Position numbers and translations under genes: made by a program
The notes under the pieces: model-generated
What the model was told of the DNA's origin: nothing
The model's input: the letters and a program-made list of their open reading frames with translations, nothing else
Database searches by the model: none
In this document: positions 2,158-56,310 of the stretch, in pieces
Numbering within the stretch: position 1 is the stretch's first letter
How the letters are laid out: the number at the start of each line of letters is the position of its first letter
Source: Diprion similis
Taxonomy: Eukaryota; Arthropoda; Insecta; Hymenoptera; Diprionidae
Direction: 5' to 3'
Assembly (NCBI RefSeq): GCF_021155765.1
Contig: NC_060105.1
Span: 17,641,001-17,705,000, forward strand
Length of the DNA: 64,000 nucleotides

Positions 2158-4874
<2,717 letters not shown>

Positions 4875-36206: not shown

Positions 36207-39200
36207 TCAGTAATTCGTTTTCATAGTTAAATTTGGATCTAGAACTAATAACGCGGCACCTACCAAGTGCAGAGACCCGGTGATAAGTATCTGCGGTTTA
36301 CCTTCATCTTTGATGGTATTTCTGTTCGAATAACACGTGCTAGTGATGTGCGATAATGCTTCGGACACGTTTTGTAATACCATTGAATTTCCTTCACCCC
36401 ATATCTCATGATTTCTTATACATCTTTCATGTTGTAAACTACTTGTGGTTTGCAATTCTAATTGATCTAACTTAACTGTTTTGCCTGATATATTTGGTAC
36501 GAAGTAAACTTTTTCAAAGTTCAAACTTTTCATTGGCTTTAATAGTTTTGACACGTCTCGATCGCCCGTTACGTTGAATATCAGAAAACGTTTCCCAATC
36601 TTATTTTCTATTTCATTTAGATACCAGGCGGCGCAATGTTCAACACTTTCGGACGTGTGAGCACCGTCCAAGTAAAAATTCATAGTTCTACCGCACAATA
36701 CTTGCGTGCGACCTGGCCACACGCAGCAAGACAAAGCGAGGGCAGTTTTCTTCGGCGAAATTATAGAGAAATCATTATTTTCATCGAGAGTGGCAAAAAC
36801 GGAAGAAATTTGAGACTCTGAATGAAGGAAGCTAACATTATGTGCATTCTCGTTACCATTAAGAGATGAATTGAACTGTGACCTAGAGAGAGTTTTTGCA
36901 ACACAAGCATAACTGTTTTTGCTCGTATCGATTCGACGATTATCAGCTTCATTACCGTTTGAAACTCGTGACTTTCTTTTTGCCATTTCTAGCATCCAAG
37001 TGTGCGCCAATTGTACAGCTAAAGATGCATTAATCTCTTGAACAGAACCGGCTATCCCTAGATTCGGTGGATCTCCGCCCCAATCGTAAGATTTGAAATC
37101 TGGTACCATTCGCAGTTCGCAGTTTCTCTCGATAGCCCTTTGCTTGATAATGTTCACAGCGTTGTCCGGCTGTGGAACTGTGAATGCAATTGAATTTTCT
37201 TTCAATATTCCTGATTTCTGATGCGCAATTTCCTCCAGAGTGTTTCCTAACAACGCAGTATGCTCCAATCCCAGACTGGAAATACCAACGCACACAGGAT
37301 TTCTGACAATGTTCGTGCAGTCGTATTCACCGCCAACACCAACTTCAAGAATCACAACATCGATGTCAGCATTTAGAAATATGTGAAACATTAAAACAGT
37401 GATGAATTTGAAGTATGCAGGCATATCGGTTTCGCTTTCCTTCTGGTTACTCAATTTGTTGAAAACATGCCAAAAATATTTTGCAAAATGATCCTCCTTT
37501 ATCGGCTGCCCGTTGATTCTTATCCTTTCCGTGGCGTGGATTAAATGCGGCGAACTATAAAACCCTGTGCGAAATCCATATTGGCGCAGTATAGCCTCTG
37601 TGAATGCACAAGTCGATCCTTTCCCCTTGGTTCCTGTGACATGAATTATTGACAGTTTGTCGACATCTTCGAGGGTCAATCCGGACCTGTAGAATGGATA
37701 ATAATTGAGAGATTAGGAGCTAGAAGAACAGAAGCGAAATGGAAACGTGTGAGAATAGAAAATTTTTAAATCGAAGAGAGAATCAAGCATTACGATTCAA
37801 TAAAAAATTGCAGGAAAATCCTGTAACTTGTACGGAGTCAAATTATTATTCTAGTTTTACCCAGCCATTATTGAATACCCAAAGAACGAGAAGCAGAAAT
37901 AAATTTGATGCAAATATGATACAAAAAATACCCATATTAAAAATTTAAATTATGTACCGCAAAAGATATTTTTTCATTTCCTGAATGGATTCGCTCCCCG
38001 AAGAATGATTCGTTTTGGCTGCTCTCAAGTACTGTGCATTTGTTTGTAAAGTGTTCAGAGCACATATCACATCCTAGAAGTAAGTGAAATTGAAAGAGTA
38101 GTGTATAGAGAGCGGCCGTACATTAACAAAAATAAACACATCTCAATTCTTCCAACCATGATTATGAGTAAGTGATATCTTAGTAAGATATTACGTTACA
38201 TTTTAAAAGCCTTCGATGGCCATTATCTAATATTTTATTGTTGGCTAATTATCGTTAATCAAAAGACTAATCAGAGAATCGACATTCAGTAATAATAGCG
38301 ATAGTGAATAGTTAATATACGTCTGAGAATGATCCAGCATTCAGTGAAATTTGAGAAATAAAGGTTTTATCGCGACAACGATGAATGGGCTGTATTGTCC
38401 GAGTCGAAGAATAGAAAGAGAGAAACAACTATTTAAAAGTCTCTAACAGTATTATTTGTTCCAATAATAGTAAATTCAAATGAAACAACATCCCTACTGC
38501 ACAAGAAAACAATTTTTGAGCAAATTTGAACAACACAAGAATTAAAACGTTCGAAATAAAATGCATTTGAGCTTATTCTGTTTATCACGGAAATTCCCAA
38601 AACTCGTTTGAAAAAAATTTTACGGACAAGTATCTCCAGGACTGATAAAAATAGATTTTTACAAGTTTTGCACAAGACATGCTTGTCAACAATGACATTT
38701 GAACATTATAATTGTACTATAATGCAATATTTTCTGAATGTTTTTACACAATTTGTGGGGATCTCGGCAGCGAACAAAATGAGCCCAAAAACATTAGAAT
38801 CGGATAAAAAACACCCAAGTTCAAAAGTTTTGTAGGTTCAAATATTTATTCGCTTTATTCAAATTTTTCATAACTGATTAACTCGTGCTATTCGAATTTG
38901 CTCAAAATTATTTCTGATGCATAGGGTCGGACGAGGTCAAAGTTATTAACGTTATCTTAACGAAACATTGGAAAAAATCGCTATTTCATATTTTTACAAT
39001 GATTTTGGAAAAACTAAGATTGCAGAATATGAGTGTTTTTTATTTTATTATGGTTTATTGAATTTCAAACAGTTCCAAAATCGCGATATAACGGTTTTTC
39101 CTCAGCATAAATCGTTACGTTTACGTTAATAACTTCAAAATGATGGGGGGGGGGGAGGATTTTTATATTTTTGTTCATCGTCATTTACACAAATACCACT

Positions 39201-41334: not shown

Positions 41335-44300
41335 ATGGCAGACGGTACGATAAACCTCTGTGCGTCGCGAAAGATGTCGTTCGGCATAAATGGCAAGTTG
41401 AACGGCGTGGAGGGCAAAACTCCGTTCCTAATCGGCGTCTCCGGCGGAACTGCCAGCGGCAAGGTAAAAGTCGACTCGAAAATATTGACGGTTATAACGT
41501 TCCTAGTCTTTGGAACTCCAATTTGCTGAGCACGAGGCGCGGGTTCCCCACGCCTGTCGCATCGAATACCGTGTTATTCGCATACGGAATCCAATGTGCG
41601 TTGCATTGGTCGATCATCGTCTTGATCGTTTTTCAGGCTAATGATCAATACGATTCTCATATTCATGAATGGAATGTCCAAACGCCAAATGATATAACCA
41701 AGAATACTAACGAGGTTGAAGTTAGTAACGTTATCGTAACGAAACGTTGAGGAAATATCACTATTTTCTTAATTTTACAATGATTTTTTAGGAGCTATGA
41801 TTTCAAAATATGAGTGTGTTTTGTTTTTATTAGTAACGGTTTTTCCTCAGCATGAATCGTTACGATAACGGTACTAAACTTCAATATGATTAATACTACT
41901 AATAATAACAATACTGAATTGCGTTGATGAAGCTTGTGTTCAACCGGCGGAATATCGCGATGTAAATTTTACGAATTACTCTGGAATGGAGCAATAAACT
42001 AGTTTTTCCTTCTCGCAAGAGACAATTTACAATTAATGAATCTGTGCTTGGTACAGAAATCGATTACAGTTTGAAAAAAAAACGCGCTTCCTCTGTCGGT
42101 AAGATAAGGACAAAGACAAGCAGTAAAAGGAGTTTATATTTTATTGAATTATTCTGGAGTGATTCCAAAACCTTGAGAGCAATAGTCATTGATTGACGAT
42201 TGTTGAATTCAGATAGTATTATCATGATGAAAATTTGTAAGAAAAGTAAAGCAAAGCAGAAATGTTATAACAATAAATATATATTTATAAATAATACATA
42301 CCATAAGAGCAATACATACATAAACCAGCGATGCCTGTTACGCTAAAAATAATTGATTCATCGATTAATTGAGTCCAAAACAAATCTCAAAAAAGTTTTT
42401 CGATGATTTATAGTGTCGTTCAAAATATTTTTCAATTTCAGGTAAAAATATTCGTTTATTTTTCACATAGCATACGCAATACGTACTTAGTATGTAAGAC
42501 ATTGATAATAATTGATACTTTAATCTTATAAATTTATATTGTATTGCGCTGTTCGTAGGAGTAAAAAACAGAAACCGATTGTGAGGAAAAATGATCGAAT
42601 CGGTCGATTAATCGATTTTTAAAAATAATCTATTATACTTGATTAATCGGGAAAAAATAATGGAGTATTTATGGTCATTTTTAAAATAAAATGAAATGTA
42701 ATATCGATGATATTCGGAAAACCATTTTATTCACTATATCGTACATCTTATAGCATTGACACGAACGTTTAGTCCACAGTTTGTAAGCGGATAATGGAAA
42801 AATTGGGACAGGTGGACATGGATCACACGGAGCGCCAAGTTGTCTGCATATCGCAGGACAGTTTTTATCGGGAATTGACCACCAGCGAGAAGCTGAAAGC
42901 TGAAAAAGGACAGTTCAACTTTGACCACCCTGACGCGTTCGACAATGATAGAATCTTACGGACCTTGAGGGATATTTTGGCTGGCGTTAAATGCGAGATA
43001 CCAGCCTACGATTACCGCTCTAACAGTATGTATGTATCTCTTTCGTTCGTACTTTGAACTCTTTTTCTGAGTCTGCAAACTTGTTGCATAAATTAAAAAT
43101 CGATGGGTTTCATTATCTGGATCAAGAGTTCAGCAGAGAAAAAAAAAACCTTTAATAAATATCGAGCAATGTTACTTGCGCCTATGAGTGTGAACTTAAA
43201 CGAAGCCACGTTCCTACTATGCCACGGAAATGATGCCGAGGAAATTTTACCAGCACAACAATTTTAGAAAGAGTTCTATAATTAGAACGATCAAAATGAT
43301 CGTATTTGATTCAATTATTTTTGGGTCCATTTTACTTACGTATGGAAGCCTTAAAAATTTTGTGAAAACCATACATGAAATTTTATATTACACTTAACAA
43401 AATTCTATTGTACCATACTTACAAAAATCTATTTATATTGTTACACTCTGAAGATAATGATCTATCAATCTTTTTTCAGGCGATTGCTAGAGGTCTTTAT
43501 GATGAACGAAATAACCCCAACAGTCTTAGAATTGGATCAAAAACATCAATACTTAATCATTTTGAACATTTTAATGACAAAATCATTTCCCGAATTGTCG
43601 ATACATTGGCTTGTGTTATTTAAATTTGCTCAGCATAATTTTCGTCACATAGCCATGCTAACCCGGTTCAATCGGTTAAATTTTACAGCTTCGGTATCTA
43701 CCATCGTTGGTTTGAATAATACTGCAAGAGAATTTTTGAAAAGTTTTTTCCTGTTTTCCTAATTTCCAATTGAAACAGCGAGGCCCATTAATTCTTAACA
43801 GACAATAAATTCAAGGGGTAGCGCATCGAAATTGACTGGTTTGTTGACGCTTACTTGCCTTCTTATTTTCTTTAACCTCTTTATTTTCCACAAATTTTCA
43901 GATTTGCAAAAAAAAAAATGTGTTTTTTATAAACAAAGTATCATCCAAAGACGATTGGTGTTCAATTTGAGAATGATTGAACGAACGGTTCAGATTTTAT
44001 GAATCATTGAATTTTTTTAACGATCGTCAACTCGCTCTAACTTGCAAGTATCAAGATGTACTGATTTTTTAAAATAATATTATAAAAGTGAAGTTGGTAC
44101 AAAATTTGAATGAATTCGGTTAAATGGTTCGGATATTGCAAAATTATTTTTTTACTCAAAATTATCATAAAATTTTGTATTTGGAATTATTGAAGTTCGT
44201 ATTTGGATTGTATTTGTCTCACAACAAATTATTGAAACACTGCAAAAACCATACAATTTTCTGATGATTTTCGGGACACGAGTAACGCTCCTGAATTCCC

Positions 44301-47300
44301 CTACAGAAGAGTGACGCAACGTCGAAATTTGGACAATTATTTTTAAAAACGAAAAATCAAATCTTTGAAAGTTGAATAGCTGAAATAATATTAGTTTGTG
44401 CCGAAGTTATATCGCTATGAAATACACACGCCTAATTTCCAAAGTTCAGATGAACGAACAATGTTTTTGAGATCTAAGAAACTAAGTTAGGGCAAAATTA
44501 AACTTTTAGCGATGTTTTACTTTGAAACTTGTAAAAACAATGTCTTTATTTTTATATAAACTGTTTTTCTACATTATGCATTGTGTATTGCTCAGTCATA
44601 CCAATAAATTTAACAAGGATTTTCCAAACTCTAACAGTCACAGTAATTGTTGCGACTGACACTCTAAACTAAAAAGTAAAAACAATATTTTTATTTTTGT
44701 ATAAACTTTCGTTCTACATGATACGTTGCTTATTACTATATCATACTAATAAATTAACCATTGATTTTTCAAATGTTTGAGTTAGCATCCACAGTTGTAA
44801 CAGCCACAGTTATTGTTGAGACGCAAAGTCTTGCGCTTCAAACAGCCTCCGCAATATGGTTTTGGGTACCAGGTAGGAGCATCCTGTACCAAAAATTAAT
44901 TGAAATCAGTATTTTGCAAAGTATATTCTTGAAACAAGAACAAATACAAAAACTTAGGATGTTTAAAATAATTTCTTTCACCAGTTCGAATTCGACAACA
45001 TAGAAACGTGCATGAAGTTCCGTATCAAACATCAGATTGAAACTTACACTAAAGTGAAATTTTCAAGTGGATTATGGATTTGAATGTGAAATTTTGAAAA
45101 GAAAAAATTTCGTTTCAAATATTTTCAGCAATATTAATTGCATCAATGACGCTGAACACAAATGAAATAACGTCTTTACTATATCATGGAAATGAGTCTG
45201 AGTGAATTCGAGTAACACAAGCTAAGACATGACTGATTTGAGCGAAGGTTTTATATTTATAACGTTCGTTACGATAAAACTCTGGGATTTTTGATCTGAA
45301 TTCAAAGTTTTTGGGCTCATCTTTTTACTCTAGAGATTTCCAGAAATCACTTAAGAAATTTAATAAACTTTGAGTACAAAAATTTTTTCAAACGGTACTC
45401 CGCAAGCTCTCGCAAAATATTCCAAACTTACGCAAGGGTTGTTGCAACTGCTGCACAGCGAGTATGTTGGCGGAGGTGGAGCTGGGGCTGGGGCTGTACA
45501 TAGAGAACAGCCGCCGGAACACATGTTACAGCCGCAGAGTTTACATGCGTCTGCGGTACTGATTGCGATGGCAAGAACAATGGCAAAAACGGCCAAGGCG
45601 TAGACAAGTTTGCCCTGCATTCTATTTATTGTCCGTTTCAAAATAACTTCACCAAAAAACTTTGAGTAACTGACGAATCTTGGGTAAATTATAATTATAA
45701 AACTTTATTAAAGAAAAGACGGAGGTTTGTCTGTTGCACTTACTGTTGGTCTGATGCCAGGTTGAACTCTGCAATCATTTTTATATTCGACACCTTATAC
45801 TGCGTAAAGTGAAACTCAGCAGATTTTCAACGTGTTTACAAACAGTTCGGGGTTTCACGCTGAGCCGGAACGCACGCTTGATAATACTTTGCGTATACCG
45901 ATTGTCATGGTCATTTTTTGTATTGAGTTTTATGGAAAATAACAAACAGTTTGGTGGAAAATTTTTTTTTCAACCTTCTCACTCGGTTTGCATCGACAAT
46001 CTTACAAATCGTACGATTGGTTCAATTTTTATTGACTCAAAAGCATAACAAACAACAAATCAAGCCAGTTATTGCACCAAGTCTTTGCGGAAATATAACA
46101 ATCGGTATTTATGTACTCGTTATATTTCGATTTGTCATTTGTGTAATTACAAGCCCGTTATGTAAATATAAATTATAGTTCTCATGATTCCTGCAGCTCG
46201 CTTGTTCCGAATATCAATAAAGTTTTCAAAGTCAATGTAAAACCGCTTTGAAACTGAACAATTTATTCAAACAACCAGTCATTTACCTGATTTTTTTTTT
46301 TTATAGATTAAAGAATCAAATCACGACGATATATCCAGCAGATGTTGTTCTTTTCGAAGGGATTTTGGTATTCTATTTTCCGGAAATTCGAGAACTTTTT
46401 CATATGAAACTGTTCGTCGACACAGACTCTGACACTCGGTTGGCCAGGAGAGGTGAGTAAATATGTGCGATTGCTTCTATCCCAGTTTCCACACGATCTA
46501 AAATACAATTCGTTTTTCTGGAAGATTATTTACGTAGCCCTGATAAAACGAACTTGTTATCGACGAATTATTATTGAACAACTCAATCCTCTAATTGAAT
46601 ATTACATTTAGTGCCAAGGGACATCAAAGAAAGAGGAAGAGACTTGGACTATGTGCTGAATCAATACATGAACTTTGTGAAACCAGCTTTCGAGGAATTC
46701 TGTTTACCAACAAAAAAATTCGCCGATGTCATTATACCAAGAGGAGCCGATAACACAGGTAATTCTAATTTGATTTAAACCACGTGGAAATTGAAACCTT
46801 CCAACCAGTGTTGGCTTTCGCCGATGTTGTTGCTTGAAGATCTAGCAATCGTTCGGAAACCAATACTAATCACGACAAAGGCTGAAAATTTTTCAACTAT
46901 GTGACTCAATTTATGTGCATTTGCTTCTTTCATGTAGGAGGTGGTGGTAGCAGTTACCGATGAACGGGCTGTCTTGTCTGAATAAAAAATTAGCAATGAC
47001 TAAAAAACCGGCTTTCAAATTCTTAGCAGTATTATTTGTGCCAGTAATGGTGACTCTGGTACGTAATAGAAATGATTTCAATCAAAACCAGATGACACAA
47101 ACTATGATATCAAGAATTTATGAAAGGTTTTCTAATTGGAACGTTCACGTAATGATTAAACTGGTGATTTTTACTCGATTCCGATAATCTTGGATTTATT
47201 TTGTTCACTTTATAGATTAACAGATTAAAATAGATTTTTGTAATACACTTCACCAGACGTGATGTAAGACATCCTGAATATTTTATCATATGGAAGATAG

Positions 47301-53120: not shown

Positions 53121-56310
<3,190 letters not shown>

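Follow-up and report, generated by a model that had tools for sequence, protein, structure and literature searches.

The locus and its host gene

The minus strand of the analysed window, i.e. the whole 64-kb stretch of Diprion similis DNA, carries what looks from its sequence like a real peptide gene with two coding exons. Exon 1 (45432–45620, minus strand; 63 codons, ATG at 45620) encodes a signal-like N terminus, nine cysteines and a Pro-Ala hinge. The coding part of exon 2 (44782–44883, minus strand) comprises 33 codons (44883–44785) with six cysteines and a C-terminal CGCYNCGC, followed by the stop codon TAA (44784–44782). Both are separated by a phase-0 intron of 548 nt (44884–45431, minus strand, GTAAGT...TACAG), whose donor GTAAGT starts at 45431 and whose acceptor, TTTTTGGTACAG, ends at 44884. 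Read from the sequence, the phase-0 join results in a product of 96 amino acids containing 15 cysteines. An initial annotation of this DNA had already proposed two exons joined in phase via a GTAAGT donor into 96 residues, and its coordinates and description were confirmed by reconstructing the join. When nine junction combinations were tried, two yielded the 96-aa, 15-cysteine product, namely the GT-AG join 45432/44883 and a junction shifted by one base that encodes the identical protein; a third gave 96 amino acids with 14 cysteines. GTAAGT occurs only 20 times on the minus strand of the 64-kb window, and position −1 of the donor is C, not G.

The surrounding gene encodes a uridine-cytidine kinase, and the claimed position of the peptide gene, nested antisense in one of its introns, was borne out by the flanking plus-strand exons. 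The upstream exon (42794–43029, plus strand, 5′ end not fixed) matches UCK2 chains (E = 1.1e-25), UCK1 chains (E = 4.3e-23) and the Pfam family PRK, which is also matched by the downstream exon (46307–46452, plus strand). The boundaries of the host intron between them (43030–46306, plus strand, GTATGT...ATAG) were set by hand from the sequence and the reading frames. All elements from the candidate promoters through the poly(A) signal (44690–45785) are located inside this intron, and with the entire gene within one intron it represents an opposite-strand nested intronic gene. Such a location is ordinary for insects. According to one study, about 6% of all genes in Drosophila are intronic, and 2mit is likewise a protein-coding gene in the intron of an opposite-strand gene, tim2 (PMC3786989); the genes themselves differ, the host being a uridine-cytidine kinase in our case.

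Promoter elements and 3′ end

The gene had been credited with a TATA box and an initiator of its own, and both elements were found upstream. The nearer candidate promoter consists of the TATA-box-like motif TATAATTA (45692–45699, minus strand) and an initiator-like TCAGTT (45668–45673, minus strand), with 28 nt between position 45699 and the initiator A (+1) at 45671, which would give a 5′ UTR of 51 nt. Because six TATAWW/TCAGTY pairs occur over both strands of the window, this pair constitutes mild evidence. A second, distal candidate pair is formed by TATAAAAA (45785) and ATCAGACC (A at 45752). The candidate TATA/initiator pairs are thus arranged in tandem (45671–45785), and a GTAAGT directly follows the distal pair. 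Scanning the 629 bp upstream of the gene for nine motifs revealed one FoxA-like site, compared to 0.17 expected, and nothing interpretable among the nine; neither a kappaB-like site (only 0.25 expected by chance) nor an MRE (only 0.19 expected) was found in these 629 bp. At the 3′ end, an AATAAA poly(A) signal (44690–44695, minus strand) is located approximately 90 nt past the stop codon. In the proposed model, transcription would start from the gene's own TATA/initiator promoter, and the transcript would undergo a single phase-0 splice, with polyadenylation at the gene's own AATAAA.

Repeats in and beside the gene

A genome search with a 1-kb query located a dispersed repeat within the intron of the peptide gene (45068–45372). 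The query gave at least 42 non-self matches in the genome, a lower bound obtained with 40 of 56 candidates scored, and among the matches listed all fall within 45068–45372.

The end of exon 2 and the 3′ UTR (44676–44831) were found to be duplicated in tandem; the diverged copy (44531–44665, minus strand) has its own AATAAA at 44545 and is preceded by a pyrimidine-rich AG. The local alignment of the two copies scored 125, whereas none of 293 random pieces scored above 43. Across a 99-nt block of the UTR, they are 22.2% different (JC distance 0.264). Six of the ten aligned codons differ, all of them nonsynonymously, and the extra copy contains an early stop; the true exon 2, unlike its duplicate, keeps an open frame with the four terminal cysteines. 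The four codons that are unchanged include two for cysteine, and since both aligned cysteine codons are preserved, the decay of the duplicate is not complete. The element at 44531–44665 therefore looks like a decaying copy beside a coding exon, a reading for which we infer the direction of the duplication. An open exon 2 beside a diverged and decaying copy suggests that the exon is old and was retained for its protein, rather than being recent noise.

Comparison with chance expectation

As a null model, we used 150 simulated 64-kb windows based on a third-order Markov model trained on this window. An ORF combining a crude signal with nine cysteines in 38 residues appeared in none of the 150 simulated windows; a signal with six cysteines was found in one of them, and nine cysteines without a signal in one. 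The real window contains one ORF start with both a signal and nine cysteines. For the second exon, AG dinucleotides opening a phase-0 frame of less than 50 amino acids with at least six cysteines are equally rare on both strands (1/3263 on the minus strand, 1/3137 on the plus strand), and the sole minus-strand case is the exon-2 acceptor. With 45 AGs located 40–1000 nt downstream of the donor, the chance of an equally cysteine-rich second exon amounts, by our arithmetic, to about 1–2%.

Base composition separates the exons (GC of 55% in exon 1 and 48% in exon 2) from the intron (30%). The GC content of exon 1 is matched by 3/1277 tiles of the window and by none of the 203 tiles from other parts of the host intron, and that of exon 2 is less unusual, being attained by 121/1279 tiles. 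In bins of 30 nt, GC rises sharply at the acceptor; past the donor, it remains at 0.47 over the first ~40 intron bases and falls only afterwards. Because of this persistence of high GC into the intron, the composition marks the acceptor, not the donor. Codon usage was not diagnostic, as the gene is equalled or outscored by 145 of 440 open stretches, a set that takes in the reference frames, and by 48 of the 440 in the synonymous codon score.

Predicted peptide and search for relatives

Along the 96-aa product, the cysteines are spaced 2-1-2-3-2-14-2-3-10-2-11-1-2-1, with nine of these spacings being of the CxC (three) or CxxC (six) type. The 15-cysteine architecture, the Pro-Ala hinge and the terminal CGCYNCGC described in the initial annotation are all present in the sequence. 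Its signal peptide stands as far as the hydrophobic start is concerned, which looks signal-like on inspection and satisfies a crude test of hydrophobicity; secretion itself is what we infer from this start. The product further contains Tyr, Trp and a basic KRK stretch, and the candidate mature peptide has a charge of about +4.6 at pH 7, assuming a cut after residue 25. A short ORF, a signal-like start and a high cysteine content place it among the small secreted cysteine-rich peptides, which are a kind and not a family. Lineage-specific secreted peptides rich in cysteine are common in insects, and the predicted gene is of an ordinary kind for an insect genome.

It had been noted at the outset that no family with this cysteine pattern was known, and our searches of Pfam, NCBIfam and PDB agree with this. 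Pfam, searched up to E = 10, returned no family for the spliced protein or for exon 1, the only matches being DUF5529 for the former (E = 0.028; 14.7 bits, under the cut-off of 25) and CR_prot_dom_plant for the latter (E = 8.3), with HMMER filters that discard most weak matches. There was no family match in NCBIfam, which is built for prokaryotes, and no relative among PDB sequences, where only a nuclear receptor appeared at E = 0.89. Defensins and other named disulfide-rich families were likewise without a profile or solved-relative match in these three databases. A viral scan (IMG/VR) with exon 1 gave 127 pattern-matching stretches, none of which was confirmed by tblastn.

In its own genome, searches with the spliced protein and exon-wise searches with protein and DNA retrieved only the gene itself as a credible match; the exon-wise searches are limited in sensitivity because one of them missed the adjoining, 22%-diverged tandem copy, and relative searches are generally weak for short diverged peptides. 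Apart from both own exons, the spliced protein matched three weak places, none of them a credible paralog. The match on contig C7 (E = 0.0037) falls in a stretch of C that reads as poly-Pro and contains two stops, and that on C4 (E = 0.106) sits on a G/C run. The third (C1:2960120, E = 0.065), a frame of 57 aa, lacks a signal-like start; it shares five cysteines in the spacing 2-1-2-3, which by a back-of-envelope estimate is expected about ten times by chance in a genome of this size. The pattern CGCxxCGC was matched seven times across the genome, with an overlap between two of the matches, compared to 21 for the reversed control pattern. Other contexts of this pattern were cysteine or Cys/Gly runs (loci L036, L038/L039 and L042) or a stop-broken frame (L040), and it also occurs within a 29-aa frame as GCGCWRCGC (L041). 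Three exact peptide strings were absent from the 5.39 million PMC papers searched, and the literature search was otherwise silent on the gene. Taken from these searches, the gene is apparently single-copy in the genome and, so far as searched, an orphan of a familiar kind.

Possible function and alternative readings

Following removal of a signal peptide of ~22–25 residues, the 96-aa product would be secreted as a basic mature peptide of ~71 amino acids with cysteine-dense ends, the Pro-Ala hinge and a middle module. Its cysteines would be oxidised in the secretory pathway and, with 15 being an odd number, at least one thiol would be spare for an intermolecular bond. Since the odd count leaves this thiol, the likeliest job would be that of a cross-linker in a gland or epithelial secretion, such as a glue, a cocoon, an egg cover or a gut or cuticle matrix. 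Together with the hinge and the separated cysteine clusters, the odd count makes a cross-linking secretion component our best guess, whereas the CxC/CxxC motifs would be just as suited to metal binding or internal bridging. Comparable features are found in insect salivary-glue proteins (Drosophila Sgs7/Sgs8), which are short, have a signal peptide and contain several CxC/CxxC motifs; we know of no Pro-Ala hinge with a terminal CGCYNCGC in secretion proteins of the Sgs7/Sgs8 type. The model as a whole, i.e. a protein-coding gene with its own promoter, spliced once, whose product is secreted and cross-links, is the best explanation, and we give all its parts together a tentative standing that falls somewhat short of an even chance.

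The main rival, which we consider unlikely but deserving attention, is a secreted host-defence or otherwise bioactive peptide (antimicrobial, seminal, salivary or venom-type) with intramolecular disulfide bridges, possibly cut at KRK. The signal-like start, the basic mature peptide of ~71 amino acids and the 15 cysteines are what such a peptide would show, but their odd number and the lack of a match to any Pfam peptide family argue against it. Moreover, the antimicrobial peptides of Neodiprion lecontei named in the available part of PMC10542623 (Hymenoptaecin, Abaecin, Tachystatin and Hisnavicins) include none described there as being of such a kind. Next comes a metallothionein-like protein equipped with a signal peptide, which would bind metal extracellularly or within the secretory pathway. 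Its nine CxC or CxxC spacings and its high and odd cysteine count are shared with metallothioneins, whose metal thiolate clusters tolerate odd counts. Metallothioneins are, however, cytosolic, without a secretion signal and poor in aromatic residues, while the product studied here has a signal-like N terminus, Tyr and Trp as well as a Pro-Ala hinge, and the secretory pathway oxidises thiols. Even at a threshold of E = 10, the Pfam search returned no metallothionein profile; we rate this reading as quite improbable and a cross-linker of a secretion as more likely.

An idea that we regard as highly improbable is a diprionid-specific secreted thiol-cluster protein of a new family, acting in extracellular metal binding or redox cross-linking and having two tandem terminal exons. 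The first of these ends in CGCYNCGC, and an in-phase join would also be possible for the second, which is shorter, diverged and located behind TTTTTACTTTTTAGTTTAG; if this were true, the choice of the last exon would set the cysteine count at 15 or 11. That exon 1 remains unspliced and encodes an 86-aa protein with 10 cysteines (45620–45360), alone or beside the spliced product, appears hardly probable at all. The frame is open beyond the donor and the elevated GC extends ~40 bases past it, but GTAAGT, so rare on that strand of the window (20 occurrences), stands exactly where a phase-0 join to a six-cysteine exon is possible, and the tail after the donor is poor in cysteine. It is also very unlikely that the locus is a decayed or non-coding relic, or a product of chance, from which no protein is made. 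The missing homologs and the undistinguished codon usage would fit such a case, but the signal-like start, 15 cysteines, in-phase splice, GC contrast, promoter and poly(A) signal co-occur, and the frame is open next to a diverged duplicate.

If expressed, the cross-linker gene favoured here would be another example, in a conifer-feeding sawfly, of a secreted peptide that may be restricted to its lineage. Peptides of this class bear on defence and plant interaction as well as on glues, cocoons and egg covers. The locus further illustrates that an intron-nested gene can have a second exon below the usual ORF cut-offs, and taken alone it opens no long-standing question.

Other features of the window and the genome

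Elsewhere in the window, frames at 2352–4871 resemble by eye an ER Hsp70 (BiP) and end in DDDLKDEL. A frame with a Mur ligase domain (36213–37712, minus strand; Pfam Mur_ligase_M) resembles folylpolyglutamate synthase, and a SURF4 frame is located at 55416–56132 (plus strand). In the genome, the chromosome-sized contig C7 contains a partial COX1-like stretch (C7:8182164–8182700, L035), which is probably mitochondrial DNA copied into the nucleus, with a full-length COX1 on contig C45. TTAGG-type telomere repeats were observed at the starts of 4 out of 20 contigs examined (of 60 contigs).
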